Source: Acidobacteriaceae bacterium
GTDB lineage: Bacteria; Acidobacteriota; Terriglobia; Terriglobales; Acidobacteriaceae
Direction of reading: 5' to 3'
Length of the DNA stretch: 64,000 nucleotides
Assembly (NCBI GenBank): GCA_021323655.1
Contig: JAJPKO010000058.1
Coordinates: forward strand, 1-64,000
Below are positions 10,295 through 21,662 of the stretch, in pieces. Numbering within the stretch: position 1 is the first letter of the stretch; each line of letters opens with the position of its first letter. Under the pieces are notes generated by a model. It worked only from the letters and a program-made list of their open reading frames with translations, was not told the origin of the DNA and ran no database searches. The position numbers and the translations under genes are program-made.

Positions 10295-11761
10295 TCAAGC
10301 GAGAAGAGCAGTGCGATAGCTCTCCTCGCAGTAAAGCAATGCCGCGCCGATGAGAGGAGCATCCTCACCAAGAGAAGATTTACAGAGATGCACCTTTTCA
10401 GATGTTAACTTATAAGCTCGATTCCGCACGAATTCACGGAGCGGATTCAGCAGAAGAGTGTCGGGCGCGTTAGATATCCCTCCGCTGATACTCACAATCT
10501 CAATGCTATTGAGATTGACGAGATTCACAATACCGATGCCAAGATAGCGGACGGCCTGATCTGTTATCTGCCTAGCCTCGACATCGCCGTGCACCGCCAA
10601 CTCGAAGACGTCCTCAACGCTGATGCATTCCTCATCTTTTTTGAGGCGCTGCGGCAGGTCTTTGATTACAGATCTCGCATCCCTCAGGATCGCCGAGCCG
10701 CCAGCGTACGCCTCCAGACACCCGCAGCGTCCGCAATTGCATGGCCGGCCATCGCTTTCGACGATCATATGCCCGAATTCGCCCGCAGTGTTGAGGCCGC
10801 CGTGAAAGATCGATCCATTCAACACCATGCCGCATCCGACCCCGGTACCTAATGTTATGCTGGCGACCGTCGACACGCCCTGCCCCGAGCCGACGAGGTA
10901 TTCTCCCCAGGCAGCCGCTCTCGTATCCTGCGTAACACAAACAGGAATATCGAAAGCTTTATGGATTGGTGCAATGATGTTGAAGTTGGCCAGATGCAGG
11001 TTTGGGGCGAACAGAATTACACCGGTCTTCGGCTCTACGGTTCCCGGAACTCCAATTCCTAAACTCTCAACGGATCTGAGTGCAGCGCCGCTCTCGTTCA
11101 GCAACCGGCGCACCCCAAACAGAATTGAATCGACGATTGCCGCATCTCCCTGGCCTGCCGGGGTCTTCTCCTTGGAGGATAACAAAACCTTTCCGGAAGC
11201 ATCCACCAATCCGAACTTGATATTGGTTCCACCGAGGTCGACGCCGATGCTCAGCTTTCCCTCGCAGGTGGCCCGCGGGCGAATCTGCTGAACGTCGCCG
11301 GCGGCTTTGTGCAGCTCGTATTGGCGAATCTTCTCAACCCGCTGAGCGTGGCGGCCACCCTCGAATGGCGTCTGCACCCATTCATCAACGATCATCTTGG
11401 CCAGTTCGATGCCTACGACCCGGGCTCCTAACGCAAGCACATTGGTATCGTTATGCAGCCGCGAAAGCCGGGCGGAGTAGGGCTCGCTGCATACGACTGC
11501 TCGAATGCCCGGCACTTTGTTGGCGCTGATCGAGATCCCAATGCCACTCCCGCAGCAAACAATCCCTCGTTCAAATTCTCCGCGCGCAACAGCTTCACCG
11601 ACCGCGAATCCAAAATCACAGTAGTCGACTCTTTCCGTATTGCATGTGCCGAAGTCGCGGACCTCGTAACCTTTCCCGGAAAGGTAGTTCTTGATCTCCT
11701 CCTTGAACGAAAAAGCGGCGTGATCTGAACCGACAGCAATCTTGCATTTCTCCTGGGTCAT
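10295..11761 (-). CDS. Fused RpiB-type aldose-6-phosphate isomerase and ROK sugar kinase (predicted allose-6-P isomerase/allokinase)
   Basis: 488 residues in two complete domains. Residues of about 5-150 are an RpiB/LacAB isomerase: VGSDHAAFSFKEEI, GIVCCGSGIGISISANKVPG with the active-site Cys, and RLHNDTNVLALGARV with the catalytic His. After a linker of about 18 residues, residues 168-488 are a ROK kinase: SIGVDLGGTNIKFGLVDASG (phosphate loop), LGIGVPGTVEPKTG, TLGTGVGCGMVLNG, the GEFGHM motif, and the zinc site with CNCGRCGCLEAYAGG. In E. coli, RpiB isomerises allose-6-phosphate to allulose-6-phosphate and the separate ROK protein AlsK phosphorylates allose. Here both activities would sit in one cytoplasmic chain. 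The transporter ends 16 bases upstream and an AlsE-like epimerase precedes that. RBS AAGGAAG. Other aldoses are possible. Confidence 0.87.
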   Translation of the reverse strand: MTQEKCKIAVGSDHAAFSFKEEIKNYLSGKGYEVRDFGTCNTERVDYCDFGFAVGEAVARGEFERGIVCCGSGIGISISANKVPGIRAVVCSEPYSARLSRLHNDTNVLALGARVVGIELAKMIVDEWVQTPFEGGRHAQRVEKIRQYELHKAAGDVQQIRPRATCEGKLSIGVDLGGTNIKFGLVDASGKVLLSSKEKTPAGQGDAAIVDSILFGVRRLLNESGAALRSVESLGIGVPGTVEPKTGVILFAPNLHLANFNIIAPIHKAFDIPVCVTQDTRAAAWGEYLVGSGQGVSTVASITLGTGVGCGMVLNGSIFHGGLNTAGEFGHMIVESDGRPCNCGRCGCLEAYAGGSAILRDARSVIKDLPQRLKKDEECISVEDVFELAVHGDVEARQITDQAVRYLGIGIVNLVNLNSIEIVSISGGISNAPDTLLLNPLREFVRNRAYKLTSEKVHLCKSSLGEDAPLIGAALLYCEESYRTALLA

Positions 11762-11777
11762 GCTTGGCTTCCTTACC

Positions 11778-12788
11778 TTATCGCACCATTGCCGTAACCA
11801 GCAGACTTAGGCCGGCAACAAACAGCACGAACATTGTTGTAATCATGACGATAGTACCGGTCGAGGCGCCGCGGAACTCTTTCCAGACAAACACACCCCA
11901 GATTGCCGCTACCATGGTGCCCCCCTGCCCTAGCCCATAGGCAATGGCAGGGCTGGCAGCCTTTGAAGCAATAAAGTTGGAGATCGTTCCCGCGCTGTTG
12001 ATTAATCCGCCGAGGACGCCTATCAAGTGATACCGGAATGACCCTCCGGCAAAATAGTCGGCGTAGGTAACCTTCTTTCCCTGGAAAGGGTGCGCCATGA
12101 GATAACTATTGAAGACCAGATTGGACAACAGAGATCCCAGAGAAAAGATCAGCACCGCCGCATAAGGCCCAAACTTGCTCGGATCGAGATGGGCATAATC
12201 GGCTGAGATAGACCGCTGCACAAGGTAATAGAACAAGCCCATCAGGATGCCGCCGGATAAGGCGAGCAGGATACCTTTCGTGAGCTCGCCTTCAGGCCCC
12301 TGGTTTCCCTTCTGCCTCCGATACGCCAACGCATCCAGAATGATGGCAGATGTAATGCACGCGACCCCCACGAAAATCAGAACCGGATTGCCTTTGGGCT
12401 GGGCGACGTAGTTGATCGATACGCCTTCGACCAGGGCGATTCCAATTCCGATGGGAAATGCGACCGCCATGCCGGCGATTGCGATCGCCGCCATGAACAG
12501 GATATTCGCGAGATTAAAAACAATACCGCCAAGGATTGCCCATGCGAAACTCATCCCGCTGCCTTGCGCCAGGTCAGCCAAAAGTCCCCGGCCGCTTGGG
12601 CCAAACGAGCCGAAGGTGAGCCCTACAATTAACGGAAGGACAAAATATCCGATTGCCTGATCCCAGTAGTAGAGCGAGAAGCCATAAGAATTTGGCTCTG
12701 CCTTGAGCGTGTTCGCATGTGAACCCCAGCAGAACATCGTCAGGACGCAAAGGGCTACGGCTACACCGTAGGAGTGGGCGAGCATCAT
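11778..12788 (-). CDS. GRP/RhaT-like sugar permease
   Basis: 336 residues with about ten hydrophobic segments and two related halves, as in the drug/metabolite superfamily group that includes glucose/ribose uptake (GRP) and rhamnose permeases. Clear features are MFCWGSHANTLK in the first helix, a conserved VFNLANILFMAAIAIAGMAV, FPIGIGIALVEG, and near the end AYGLGQGGTMVAAIWGVFVWKEF. It should be an inner-membrane, ion-coupled sugar importer. Its start ATG overlaps the stop of the epimerase gene (ATGA), and the RpiB-ROK gene begins 16 bases after its stop. It is therefore translationally coupled in the operon and is probably the uptake step for the sugar the kinase phosphorylates. Confidence 0.82.
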   Translation of the reverse strand: MMLAHSYGVAVALCVLTMFCWGSHANTLKAEPNSYGFSLYYWDQAIGYFVLPLIVGLTFGSFGPSGRGLLADLAQGSGMSFAWAILGGIVFNLANILFMAAIAIAGMAVAFPIGIGIALVEGVSINYVAQPKGNPVLIFVGVACITSAIILDALAYRRQKGNQGPEGELTKGILLALSGGILMGLFYYLVQRSISADYAHLDPSKFGPYAAVLIFSLGSLLSNLVFNSYLMAHPFQGKKVTYADYFAGGSFRYHLIGVLGGLINSAGTISNFIASKAASPAIAYGLGQGGTMVAAIWGVFVWKEFRGASTGTIVMITTMFVLFVAGLSLLVTAMVR

Positions 12789-13474
12789 ATGCGGGACTCT
12801 TTTCCTTGCACGAGCTCCCTGACTGCCTCGGTTGCCCGGCGAATGTCATAACGTTTATCAAAGATGCTTGAGGTCCCGCACACCAACATCGTTGCGCCCG
12901 CTGAAAGCATTGCAGGAATATGCTGGAAGCTAACGTTCCCGTCTACTTGAATCTCAATGTCAGTGCGGCCTTTGGAGCGGAGCAAGTCACGCACATTCGC
13001 AATCTTGCGGAGCATGGCTGGCACAAGTTTTTGTCCCGCGAATCCAGGATTCACCGTCATCACGGTAATCAGATCGACATCGTCGAGAATATATTCAAGA
13101 ACGGTAAGCGGCGTCGAGGGATTAAGCGCAATACCCGGTCTGCCCCCTGCATCTCGAATCAACTGAAGGATCCGCTGCGCGTGATGCGTCGCTTCGAAAT
13201 GGATTGAAACGAACTCAGCGCCGGACGAGATTGCCCGTTCAACATATCGCTCGGGATCGGCGACCATTAGGTGGCAGTCCATCGGAATGGCGCAAAGGGC
13301 ACGAGCGAGCAGCATGATATCGAAGTTCAAAGCGAAGTTCGGGACGAAGTTCCCGTCCATAATATCGATGTGCAAATAATCGATGCCGGCTTCCACGAGC
13401 TGACTGATGTCCGCTGACAGGTTCCGAAAATCGGCGCACGCCAAGGACGCCTCAATATTCACCCTCCCCATCAT
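12785..13474 (-). CDS. alsE: Ribulose-phosphate/D-allulose-6-phosphate 3-epimerase family protein (AlsE-like)
   Basis: 229 residues, a cytoplasmic TIM barrel of the Rpe family. Metal and catalytic motifs are complete: YLHIDIMDGNFVPN, PMDCHLMVADPERY, VSIHFEAT, and EIQVDGNV followed by AGATMLVCGTSSIF. The phosphate-binding stretch reads ITVMTVNPGFAGQKLVPAML. As I recall, ribulose-phosphate epimerases have MSVNPGFGGQ here whereas E. coli AlsE has MTVDPGFAGQ, so the Thr and Ala favour allulose-6-phosphate 3-epimerase (product fructose-6-phosphate). It is the first gene of a three-gene operon (AAGGAGG ribosome site, spacing 7) with a sugar permease and the RpiB-ROK fusion, which supplies the preceding steps. 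A plain Rpe role cannot be excluded. Confidence 0.82.
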   Translation of the reverse strand: MMGRVNIEASLACADFRNLSADISQLVEAGIDYLHIDIMDGNFVPNFALNFDIMLLARALCAIPMDCHLMVADPERYVERAISSGAEFVSIHFEATHHAQRILQLIRDAGGRPGIALNPSTPLTVLEYILDDVDLITVMTVNPGFAGQKLVPAMLRKIANVRDLLRSKGRTDIEIQVDGNVSFQHIPAMLSAGATMLVCGTSSIFDKRYDIRRATEAVRELVQGKESRI

Positions 13475-13913
13475 TTAGCAGCCTCCTTGAAACTCCTCTA
13501 ACCCTTCTCTGCCGACTGACTGCTGGACATAATCCTGGGCTGGCTTCTGACCATTCTGAGACCGACAACCGTTTTCCATAAAATTGGACGCTCGCAACTA
13601 AATGATTATATCCGAAAGATTTCAAATCAAAATCGCAAAGAAAACGTGATCACTACGTCACATCCGTATTACGATCTTGCCGGGTCATGCCTCGTGCAAT
13701 CGGAGCAAACCCATCCTGGCGGAATGGGCCGCCCTATCAAATCCACGAGCTCTCGATGAATTCAGGTATTTTGGGGGGCTCTCCAGAAGAGCTGCTTCCG
13801 CCGGATTAACGCAAATCTGACTACGCCAGGGCGCGCCGTCGTCGACCAGTAAAACATCTAATCAACGAGTAGGGCAGACGCAGCCCTAAATCTGCAACAT
13901 CGTAGTACTATTT
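13475..13913 (-). promoter_or_regulatory. Upstream region of the alsE-like operon with a candidate repressor site
   Basis: About 440 bases without a gene between the SIS gene and the epimerase gene. At 13605-13618 (reverse complement CTTTCGGATATAAT) a TATAAT box overlaps CTTTCGG, which also occurs as CTTTCGGTATAAT on the reverse strand in front of the DeoR-type gene (5015-5003). It lies about 130 bases before the operon start. A TTTTGA with 16-base spacing could be the -35. Nothing else in the region is recognisable. Confidence 0.35.
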
Positions 13914-14978
13914 CTATCCAGCCAGCGTGACTACACGACTCAGATTGCGGGGTGAGTCAGGGTCGAGCCCCTTCTGCAATCCGAAATAACAACCAAGCAA
14001 CTGGCCCCAAACCAGATATACGACGAGCCGAGCTAACTCCGGAACACCCAGCGATAGCTCGATCGCTAGGTCTGCCGAGCTTCGGACAGCGGGAGTGAAC
14101 TTATTTGCAATCGCCAAGGTGGCCGCGCCCAACTCTTTCATCTCTATAAGCACAGCGCTTTCCTTTGCAAAACCTGCTTCAGAGAGCAGGCAGCCGACCA
14201 AAACCTTCTCAGAGACGATCGATTTTGGGCCATGCCGAAATTCCAGCGAGTGGAAGAACTGCGCATACGTCGAGGAGGATTCCATGATTTTGAGCGAGAC
14301 CTCTTCGGCGATCGGATAAAGCGGGCCTTGGGCCAGGAAGGTGACATCTTCAAAGCTCTGGCGAGCGAAATCTTCTGTTTGCGAGGCATAAAGCTCAAAC
14401 AGCCGGTTTAGCTCCGACGGAAGCGCATTTAGGGCTTCTATAAAATCGAGACGGCCAGCAAATTTGGCCGCTATATACTGCAGCGCAATCAGCATCGAGC
14501 TGAATGAGGAGGTCATCACCGTGCTTTCCTCAACTACGGGCAGTTTCAAAGTTCTGTGGGTCAGTTCCGCTAGTTCGTTTCCATCACAGGTTACGGCGAG
14601 GAATTGGATGCCCCTCTCCTTGAGAACTTCTCCGACTTCGAGCACTTCCGAAGTGCGTCCGGAGCGCGAAATCAGGACCGGAAAGACCGTAGGATTCCAG
14701 ACAGGAAGGTGCAATTCAGGAAATAACAGAATTTCTGAGGCAGGCACGGCGTTCGCCGGCACCGCTGCCAGATCTTTAAAAGAAGCGGCAGCGGCCTGCG
14801 CGAGATAATAGCTAGTTCCGCAGCCAACGAAGATCCACTGGAAAGAAAAGGGATCTTTGTCGGGCATAAGGATGTCCAGATTGGTATTGGCTAACGCTTG
14901 CAGACAACGTCGCCAGACAGCAGGTTGTCCATATATCTCTCGTAAGGTTCTTTCTCCTGCTTTCATCTGATTCTCCAT
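13914..14978 (-). CDS. Double-SIS-domain sugar-phosphate isomerase/deaminase (AgaS/GlmS-isomerase-like)
   Basis: About 354 residues with two SIS domains. The first has FVGCGTSYYLAQAAAASF and PVLISRSGRTSEVLEV, the second FLAQGPLYPIAEEVSLKIME, FHSLEFRHGPKSIV and the C-terminal DSPRNLSRVVTL. This is the arrangement of the isomerase half of GlmS and of stand-alone enzymes such as AgaS and FrlB that deaminate or isomerise amino-sugar or fructosamine 6-phosphates. The catalytic Glu is probably in the VSLKIMESS segment. I use ATG 14978 (MENQMKAGERT), preceded by GGAG; an upstream ATG at 15050 would add an unlikely hydrophobic extension. It lies between a secreted beta-helix enzyme and the alsE-like operon, which suggests that the locus also handles an amino sugar. 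Substrate unknown. Confidence 0.8.
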   Translation of the reverse strand: MENQMKAGERTLREIYGQPAVWRRCLQALANTNLDILMPDKDPFSFQWIFVGCGTSYYLAQAAAASFKDLAAVPANAVPASEILLFPELHLPVWNPTVFPVLISRSGRTSEVLEVGEVLKERGIQFLAVTCDGNELAELTHRTLKLPVVEESTVMTSSFSSMLIALQYIAAKFAGRLDFIEALNALPSELNRLFELYASQTEDFARQSFEDVTFLAQGPLYPIAEEVSLKIMESSSTYAQFFHSLEFRHGPKSIVSEKVLVGCLLSEAGFAKESAVLIEMKELGAATLAIANKFTPAVRSSADLAIELSLGVPELARLVVYLVWGQLLGCYFGLQKGLDPDSPRNLSRVVTLAG

Positions 14979-15161
14979 ACTCTCCGATCCAAAATAAGTT
15001 CCCATTTCGCGAGTATATATAAGCGTAATAAAACGCAATAAAAAATTCAATTCATCGGTGCTTCAGAAAGCGATTGTCGCGGCGCGGTCCATCCACGAGC
15101 AACCATTCCGCCAATTCCTCGTATGATCGAAGTTAAGGCTGAAGTCTTCGAGATGGTGTGC

Positions 15162-17759: not shown

Positions 17760-18214
17760 CTTTTCTGTACGTCCCGTGGCTTCCGTGAGCGGAGTCGCCG
17801 TTGAGGTTACGCTCGCCAATATGCGAGGACGCGGTCGCGGTAGCATCCGCCGAGCAGGCCGCCCACGGATTGTTGCGCGGCCTTTCCCAGAATGTCCCAG
17901 AGGGCGATATTGATACCGCTGATGGTATGGGTGACGGCACCGCCTCGTCCAAGCCAGAATGTGTTGGCATTAAGCTTTTCGGTCACACGCTCCGGCTCCA
18001 GCGGATTTTCTCCAAGATAAAGCGGTTCGAGCATAGCTAAAGCGCCGTGAGCCAGCAAATCATTGGTTGAAATTGAACCCCGGCCCGTAAGGCTGGCATC
18101 GGTATGGACGGCGATGAGTGTGTGCACGCAGTCATTCGGCTTGATCTCATTGGCCCATCCTCCGGGAGGAGCGCTGCCGCGCAGGCTCGCTACCCATATT
18201 TTCGTAATCTTCAT
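17760..18214 (-). pseudogene. Truncated and frameshifted enolase-superfamily (mandelate racemase/muconate lactonizing) gene
   Basis: The reading frame from 18214 gives 135 residues with the N-terminal capping domain of this superfamily: MKITKIWVASLRG, then HTLIAVHTDASLTGRGSIST, then the helix ISGINIALWDILGKAAQQSV and the loop GGLLGGCYRDRVLAY. It stops at TAA just after the position where the barrel should begin. Removing two bases lets the frame continue RVLAYASVTSTATPLTEA, like true homologues, but the similarity fades within 20-30 codons and the roughly 250-residue metal-binding barrel is missing. It must be inactive. It lies 32 bases downstream of an intact APC permease on the same strand, so the two probably once formed a catabolic operon. 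Confidence 0.75.
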
Positions 18215-20214: not shown

Positions 20215-21662
20215 CGCCGGCAGGCGAGCAATCACGAACAGCATCCTTAATCCTTAGGCTCGGTTTTCCTTCGAAATCGGATCCCCCCGAACCGCCAGAT
20301 TCACTTCCAAGAAGTCTGACCTCATCCCCCGGCCCCTTCATCTCCTCTGCGATATGTGCCGGAGTCGAGTCATGCAAAGGCCAGTGAAAGTAGAGGTCTT
20401 TGATAATCCTCTTCGCAATCAATCGCGCCGCGCCAAGGGCGCTGGCCTCGCCACCAAGCTTAGAAACCATTAGCTGAACGTCATTCGCCGAGCTTTCCAA
20501 CGACCTCTGCTTGATGATCCTGCGCAGAGGATCGGAAACCAACTCCGGAATCTCCCGGAAAAGCGCCCCCCCCGAAGATCACGACGCTCGGATTCAGCAG
20601 GTTGATCAGGTTGGCCAATCCGATTCCGATGTAAGAAGCGGACCTCTGCAACACCCTGTACGCCAGGCTATCGTCCTCCCTCGCAGCCTGTGCGATCAAC
20701 TCGATGCTGACCTTCTCGAGATCATCGCCAATCGCCTCACGAATCCTGGAGTCCGTACCCTGCTCCATTGCGGACCGTACATTTTGAATAATCGCGGCGC
20801 ACGAAGCTACTGTTTGAAGGCAGCCGGTGTTTCCGCAGGAGCACAATGAGCCGTTTTCGTTCACAGTGATGTGCCCGAACTCGCCGGCCCGGCCGCCAGC
20901 CCCCTCATAGATCCTGCCATCGAGGAAGATTCCAGCCCCAACGCCCATTCCCACATCGATGTACAGAAAATTGTTCAGATCTCGTGCCGCCCCGAAGCAT
21001 TTCTCCGCAATCGTCGATGTCCGGACACTGTCTTCAACCAGGCACGGAAGATCGAACTCCTTCTCGAACAGCTCGCGCAGCGGCACGTTCTTCCACTCCG
21101 CCATCTGGCCCGGTCGTGGATAGGAAAGAACTACTCCTGTCTTGCTATCGATCACACCGGAGTGCGCAATCCCGATGCCCTTGATCAATCTTCGTGGAAT
21201 GTTGGATCCTCCTATCGACTCATGGATGCTGAGAAACGTCTTCTCTAACACCCGCTCGCGGCCAGCGTTTAACTCCGTTCGCGACCGTGACTCGTAGACG
21301 AGCTTCCCATTGATATCGGTAATAACAATGCGCAAAAAGAAAGACCCAAGATCGACGCCGACAAGATAGCCCGCATCGCCACGAACCTGCAGCGGTATCG
21401 GCTTACGACCTAAACTGGGCCCCGTCTGCTCAGCCTCAATGGCGGCATCCTTCTTCTGTGTCGTCGGGGCTGACTCGACCACCATCCCTTTCTTGATCAG
21501 CTGCTGAACAATCGCCGTGATCAATGACGGACTCAAGGTGGCCTGTTTTGCCAACTCCAATCTCGAGCTATTAATTTTAGAATGTATTAATTGCAGAATT
21601 CCAAGCTCGCGCTGCTCGAGTTTTTTCAGGTCCTCGCGTTCACGCCTTGCTGTTTTGCTCAT
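20198..21662 (-). pseudogene. ROK-family transcriptional regulator interrupted by a frameshift at G8
   Basis: From ATG 21662 the frame encodes an N-terminal helix-turn-helix (RELGILQLIHSKINSSRLEL, AKQATLSPSLITAIVQQLIK) and then a ROK domain (YLVGVDLGSFFLRIVITDIN, GIGIAHSGVIDSKTG, GEFGHITVNENG, CSCGNTGCLQTVAS). At NPSVVIFGGG it meets eight consecutive G (reverse complement of 20566-20573) and goes out of frame. Dropping one G restores IFGGALFREIPELVSDPLRR and a normal ROK C-terminus in the next frame, down to the stop at 20198. The last 60 residues (EMKGPGDEVRLLGSE onward) look like a non-homologous tail. Intact members bind sugars and repress catabolic genes. It is divergent from the esterase gene at 21736. 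Sequencing error at the homopolymer is a real alternative. Confidence 0.75.

Follow-up and report, generated by a model that had tools for sequence, protein, structure and literature searches.

In E. coli, D-allose is converted to fructose-6-phosphate by the als route, as summarised in PMC5893763. This system (AlsK, RpiB/AlsI, AlsE, AlsBAC and AlsR) groups a kinase, an RpiB-type isomerase and an epimerase of the RPE family, with kinase and isomerase as separate proteins, and includes an ATP-binding cassette (ABC) importer, AlsBAC, and an adjacent regulator. A comparable set is found on the Chloroflexota plasmid CP069395.1 in the order LacI-alsE-alsK-rpiB-alsB-ABC-alsC, where alsE, alsK and rpiB are consecutive and alsK and rpiB overlap. 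Here we describe a compact operon of an Acidobacteriaceae bacterium in which an RpiB isomerase and a ROK kinase are encoded as one protein, together with a GRP-type sugar permease and an AlsE-like epimerase. It lies in a stretch of 64,000 nucleotides (positions 1 to 64,000 of contig JAJPKO010000058.1, assembly GCA_021323655.1), which we call the window. The operon likewise groups the three enzyme types, and its epimerase carries a loop similar to the GTS loop of AlsE, but it differs from the als operon of E. coli in its fused kinase and isomerase, its GRP permease and the lack of both an AlsBAC-type importer and a regulator in the set of genes identified between positions 10295 and 15050. It also differs from the Chloroflexota locus, which is unfused, has the kinase before the isomerase and an ABC importer, and its AlsK and AlsE score above the curated cut-offs. 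We estimate at about 0.6 the probability that the operon takes up and degrades D-allose, or a close hexose of allose (3-epi-glucose) configuration, by an independently assembled pathway with a fused kinase-isomerase.

A complete RpiB and a nearly complete ROK kinase in one chain

The three open reading frames of the operon (10295-13474; Table 1) are all on the minus strand. The epimerase gene shares 4 nucleotides with the permease gene, which in turn is separated from the fused gene by 16 nucleotides. The epimerase matched the Pfam family Ribul_P_3_epim and the permease both Ureide_permease and Sugar_transport, while the third product matched LacAB_rpiB (E 7.3e-59, model positions 1-138 of 138) in its first half and ROK (E 3.1e-68, model positions 2-291 of 294) in its second. 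The RpiB half scored 200 bits against TIGR01120 over residues 7-147, above the curated equivalog cut-off of 138.65, and keeps D13, H14, C70, H103, R137 and R141. The alignment pairs C70 with the Cys of ICGTG and H103 with the His of RQHNDTN in E. coli RpiB, the catalytic Cys and the ring-opening His of this enzyme (PMC3755991). In the kinase half, D175, T179, D279, E328 and H331 and the zinc cysteines C341, C343 and C348 are kept, and the motifs listed for ROK sugar kinases in PMC5458393 (DxGxT, the catalytic Asp, ExGH and the zinc motif CxCGxxGCx(E/D)) are all present. These data bear out the original prediction, made from the window alone, of a compact operon of three overlapping or adjacent genes, one of them coding for a complete isomerase and a complete kinase with active-site and zinc residues retained.

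The two halves are joined by a linker of about 19 residues. In the kinase frame, ATG, GTG and TTG are absent from residues 139-184 and the next in-frame TTG is at residue 185, past the ATP loop, so that an ordinary start codon for the kinase is lacking; CTG occurs at residues 150 and 170, and the latter could serve as a weak internal start. The window genome thus contains a real RpiB-ROK gene fusion. A structure model of the protein was confident for the kinase half, with ROK glucokinases as its best Foldseek matches. The RpiB part of the underlying alignment held one relative only, and because the RpiB half and the linker (155-163) were weakly modelled, the placement of the domains is not interpreted.

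The window genome (G000; 4.59 Mb in 65 contigs) encodes a single additional copy each of RpiB (G000:C56) and Rpe (G000:C17). The RpiB half of the fusion shares 60% identity with E. coli RpiB/AlsI, 59% with its counterpart in the annotated Chloroflexota als operon and 46% with the second RpiB of its own genome. The sequence CSEPYSAxLSRxHNDTN is common to the RpiB half, E. coli RpiB and the Chloroflexota RpiB, and is not present in the further RpiB of the genome. Judged by sequence, the operon enzymes are distinct from the second copies encoded elsewhere, in agreement with the allose-type enzyme set originally proposed.

Separate genes in the relatives

The operon was found in seven of 398 genomes of the family, including the window genome (the genomes were evenly drawn from a larger group and searched at E <= 1e-60, with up to three candidates scored per genome). 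In all six others (G033, G172, G190, G227, G362 and G413) rpiB and rok are separate genes and the order is the same as in the window, epimerase-permease-rpiB-rok, the kinase gene of G172 running off its contig. The proteins of these operons are about 55-80% identical to those of the window; apart from the separate rpiB and rok, the unfused operons differ from the fused one by a palindrome, TTGAAAGCTTTCA, found before five of the six. The rpiB and rok genes overlap by 4 bases in G033 and G190 and, with the likeliest starts, are 37 (G362), 45 (G172), 62 (G227) and 79 (G413) bases apart; in G172 they share a frame, with one TAA between them. Since rpiB and rok are separate but adjacent in six relatives, the window protein is a fusion of neighbouring genes, and because separate genes are the rule among them, this was probably the ancestral state. 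The fused gene would have arisen in the G000 lineage through loss of the rpiB stop and the adjacent rok start, with the linker as what remains between them.

A junction query of 180 residues (E <= 1e-25) revealed no second fusion in 396 genomes of the phylum, partly the same as the 398 of the family, and recovered the window genome alone; the other of the two genomes of the genus gave no match at E <= 1e-50. A search of a genome collection with an alignment of six kinases returned at least 592 stretches and at least 554 relatives, of which the best 80 were retained; one of these 80 has rpiB in its stretch, and this is G227 again. On plasmids, 1883 records matched and one covers 80% of the query, with the genes separate there. 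These searches would miss fusions with distant ROK or RpiB partners. In addition, a description of an RpiB-ROK fusion was not found in open-access full text, outside whose coverage most subscription journals lie, and none of the open-access papers returned for allose operons mentions a fusion in its title or the opening of its abstract, consistent with the earlier impression that the fusion is undescribed. Among viral sequences, one locus matched the RpiB half, at 49% identity.

A changed residue beside the catalytic Asp of the kinase

Allose is the 3-epimer of glucose, and an allose kinase would therefore need a change at the contact with the sugar 3-OH. The residue directly before the catalytic Asp is Gln in the window protein and in the five other genomes in which it can be read, and Asn in 97 of the 97 other ROK proteins aligned. 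This alignment has 104 rows: 6 with Gln (five genomes, G227 twice), 97 with Asn and one (L034, G172) cut off before the position. The Asn rows comprise 18 loci of a separate search and 79 of the best 80 collection relatives, and one of the two patterns used in the collection search was the Gln motif itself, which biases it toward Gln. Four annotated allose kinases have neither residue here, with Arg in E. coli AlsK and Lys in those of Chloroflexota and two Pantoea. Asn was also found in two ROK proteins of the Chloroflexota and Sinorhizobium loci that are not annotated as allose kinases, the Sinorhizobium one adjoining a gene of the RPE family. In NagK of P. shigelloides, the Asn at this position (N104) and a Glu have been proposed to coordinate the 3'-OH, and the N104D change raised the Michaelis constant for both substrates, for N-acetylglucosamine about 45-fold if the columns of the published table stand in the order that we infer (PMC10031466).

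An AlsE-like loop in the epimerase

The C-terminal loop reads GTSSIF in the operon epimerase, GTSGLF in AlsE proteins and GSAIF in E. coli Rpe, so the operon enzyme has the AlsE-type form GTS(G/S)(L/I)F, a pattern chosen from 18 aligned sequences. We take this loop to function in phosphate binding, near the C-terminal phosphate site. In pairwise alignments it is one residue longer than in two solved Rpe proteins, and a multiple alignment placed a two-residue gap slightly downstream. In a tree of the 18 sequences, the operon epimerases, AlsE and three plasmid epimerases annotated rpe were split from two Rpe proteins and the Sinorhizobium protein. The original prediction had instead relied on an AlsE-type MTVNPGFAGQ motif. 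The Ala of GFAGQ does recur in the three plasmid epimerases and in E. coli AlsE, and both aligned Rpe have Gly in its place; on the other hand, MTVNPGF-GQ occurs in ordinary Rpe too (MTVNPGFGGQ in the solved 2fli), and because the six other operon epimerases have GAAGQ, GAVGQ or GSAGQ, this Ala is a weak mark of AlsE.

The plasmid epimerases nearest to the operon enzyme, at L142 2570-6663 (Citrobacter) and L143 2360-6582 (Enterococcus), are annotated rpe, have the AlsE-like loop and lie beside a LacI regulator, a ribokinase-type kinase and a phosphotransferase system transporter; these loci represent a possible allulose route.

Table 1. Positions in the window of the operon genes and of the features discussed in the text.
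Feature	Positions	Strand	Evidence
Fused gene, RpiB isomerase (N-terminal), linker and ROK kinase (C-terminal), 488 residues	10295..11761	-	Single open frame; Pfam; separate genes in 6/6 relatives
RpiB domain, residues 8-145	11327..11740	-	PF02502
Linker, about residues 150-168, without in-frame ATG/GTG/TTG	11258..11314	-	Codon reading; low model confidence at 155-163
ROK kinase domain, residues 172-477	10331..11248	-	PF00480
Codon of Gln278, directly before catalytic Asp279	10928..10930	-	Alignment of ROK proteins
GRP-type sugar permease, 336 residues	11778..12788	-	PF07168, E 8.3e-19; PF06800, E 1.2e-8
AlsE-like epimerase of the RPE family, 229 residues	12785..13474	-	PF00834; tree
Epimerase loop GTSSIF, residues 200-205	12860..12877	-	Alignments; resembles GTSGLF of AlsE

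Regulation and neighbouring genes

The palindrome TTGAAAGCTTTCA stands upstream of the epimerase gene in L025 (G033), L041 (G227), L042 (G362), L043 (G190) and L044 (G172). Whole-genome searches found one or two exact copies in each of these five genomes and none in G000, G001 or G413, and the reversed control gave none. Second copies precede an outer-membrane receptor-like gene in G190, near a PfkB kinase and a nucleoside hydrolase, and a GH29-like gene in G172. In G033 and G172 a LacI-type gene lies next to the operon in divergent orientation, and in G227 it lies past a GH127 gene; its product is the putative TTGAAAGCTTTCA-binding protein, and the G033 protein matched RbsR best among the models (231.4 bits, cut-off 531). 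Because the window genome is without an exact copy, control of the fused operon probably differs. The window site 13612-13625 has three mismatches to the palindrome, which is at chance level, and for this reason no operator is claimed upstream of the operon. Promoter-like and terminator-like sites around the operon were no more frequent than in shuffled sequence, and scanning the window for tRNAs and Rfam families yielded no matches. A FucU-like mutarotase gene is found near the unfused operons in three loci; that of L025 scored 112.6 bits against FucU vs 46.2 against RbsD, both below cut-off.

Directly upstream of the window operon is a SIS-domain gene (13914-15050, minus strand) of the glucosamine-6-phosphate deaminase/AgaS kind, below the curated cut-offs for those. 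It was excluded from the operon because the stretches of the six relatives, two of which stop at contig ends, hold no counterpart at E <= 1e-10. Further along the minus strand, 17807-18214 codes for the N-terminal domain only (135 residues) of a dehydratase of the mandelate-racemase/enolase type, which looks truncated since the next gene starts 254 bases on, and 20481-21662 codes for another ROK protein, perhaps a sugar-responsive repressor, whose N terminus matches a winged helix weakly (below the Pfam cut-off).

On a plasmid of Pantoea sp. At-9b (L138 4294-8854), a ribokinase gene comes after alsE and alsK, with a nucleoside hydrolase gene one gene on; with the nucleoside hydrolase of G190 in mind, we speculate that six-carbon nucleosides could be a source of allulose. 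On a plasmid of Sinorhizobium sp. B11 (L128 1768-6987), Gfo/Idh/MocA and sugar-phosphate isomerase/epimerase genes are followed by an RPE-family gene and a ROK kinase, which suggests a different sugar route.

Discussion

In the route that we propose, the GRP-type permease would import the sugar, the ROK half would phosphorylate its 6-OH with ATP, the RpiB half would open and isomerise allose-6-phosphate to allulose-6-phosphate, and the separate AlsE-like epimerase would invert carbon 3 to yield fructose-6-phosphate for glycolysis. The kinase would derive from ROK proteins on the glucokinase side and not from AlsK, its specificity being set by the change from Asn to Gln at the sugar 3-OH contact. 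The substrate, the order of reactions and the activity of both halves are predictions, and any benefit of the fusion would lie in equal amounts and proximity; channelling of the aldose-6-phosphate within the chain is conceivable. Human GNE (UDP-N-acetylglucosamine 2-epimerase/N-acetylmannosamine kinase), which was among the ROK matches, likewise joins a ROK kinase to another sugar enzyme of its pathway in one chain, with a different partner enzyme and substrate. The GNE epimerase acts before its kinase, and a NanE/NanK fusion occurs in bacteria.

Several observations weigh against an allose route. The kinase half scored 115.4 bits against the AlsK model NF007251 (cut-off 253), and the unfused kinases of G033 (119.8) and G227 (113.9) also fell below it, compared with 313.3 for the Chloroflexota AlsK and 358.5 for the Pantoea AlsK; it is 25% identical to E. 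coli AlsK, and its nearest solved relatives are glucokinases, with the E. coli D-allose kinase far down the list. The two Pantoea kinases that share a changed residue are closely related, and their operons hold a ribokinase and no rpiB. The epimerase scored 194.1 bits against the AlsE model NF007266 (cut-off 271), a score that does not separate it from the second Rpe of the genome because the latter reaches 191.9, and it narrowly passes the Rpe model TIGR01163 (220.3 bits, cut-off 212.6; second Rpe, 275.2). The split in the epimerase tree has a support of 84/91, below the tool's star, and the tree has one very long branch. These comparisons do not bear out the original interpretation in full: by the curated models the kinase is not AlsK, the epimerase is not AlsE and the operon is not orthologous to the als operon. 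Moreover, the importer is not of a known allose kind, and in the relatives the operon is surrounded by assorted glycoside hydrolases (GH13, GH127 in three loci and a GH39-like protein below the Pfam cut-off) which, together with the mutarotase, suggest plant polysaccharides and not allose in particular. Lastly, the fusion occurs in one genome only, so there is no comparative evidence of selection for it.

A kinase nearest to glucokinases, beside such varied glycoside hydrolases, would also be compatible with another hexose, for instance altrose or a glucose-type sugar from plant glycosides, taken by a broad kinase, with the isomerase and the epimerase serving a different 6-phosphate. However, a glucose or mannose kinase needs no RpiB and no 3-epimerase to reach fructose-6-phosphate, and the replacement at the 3-OH contact of an Asn otherwise invariant in our alignment also argues against this explanation, which we consider unlikely. 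A pentose route, in which D-ribose or a ribo-configured pentose would be converted to its 5-phosphate by the ROK half, to ribulose-5-phosphate by RpiB and to xylulose-5-phosphate by the epimerase, agrees with the matches of these two enzymes to the Rpe and ribose-5-phosphate isomerase B models, with the RbsR match of the G033 regulator, far below cut-off as it is, and with the PfkB kinase and nucleoside hydrolase adjoining the second palindrome copy of G190. Yet a second RpiB and Rpe are present in the genome, ribokinases are normally PfkB proteins and the operon has none, the epimerase loop is AlsE-like and the mutarotase fits FucU over RbsD, all of which makes a pentose substrate decidedly improbable.

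A sequencing or assembly artefact, the real genes being separate as in the relatives, would agree with a fusion confined to a single genome (1/398 in the family, 1/396 in the phylum). Nevertheless, no stop codon interrupts the frame across the junction, which offers the kinase no ordinary start. In the other two frames the sole ATG, GTG or TTG near the junction and ahead of the kinase is a TTG within rpiB, at base 424, and an indel alone would thus leave the kinase with a poor start. Such an error therefore seems very improbable indeed.

Within the allose route that we favour, the window protein may combine allose kinase and allose-6-phosphate isomerase activities and have evolved independently of AlsK: the Asn to Gln change would have made a ROK protein of the glucokinase type allose-specific, and this kinase would have been paired with an RpiB in this family and later fused to it, so that the reactive aldose-6-phosphate is passed on inside a single particle. 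If so, ROK kinases for 3-epi-sugars would in general be recognisable by the residue that precedes the catalytic Asp, namely Gln, Lys or Arg in place of Asn. This fuller account is tentative and, taken as a whole, somewhat doubtful.

Enzymes of allose and allulose are relevant to rare-sugar production. The fused operon and its unfused relatives would form a natural comparison set for the effect on flux of fusing consecutive enzymes. If the proposed specificity is correct, a simple residue rule would allow the specificity of ROK kinases to be read from sequence, and the operon would mean that allose use arose a second time, independently, here with the kinase and the isomerase united in a single chain.

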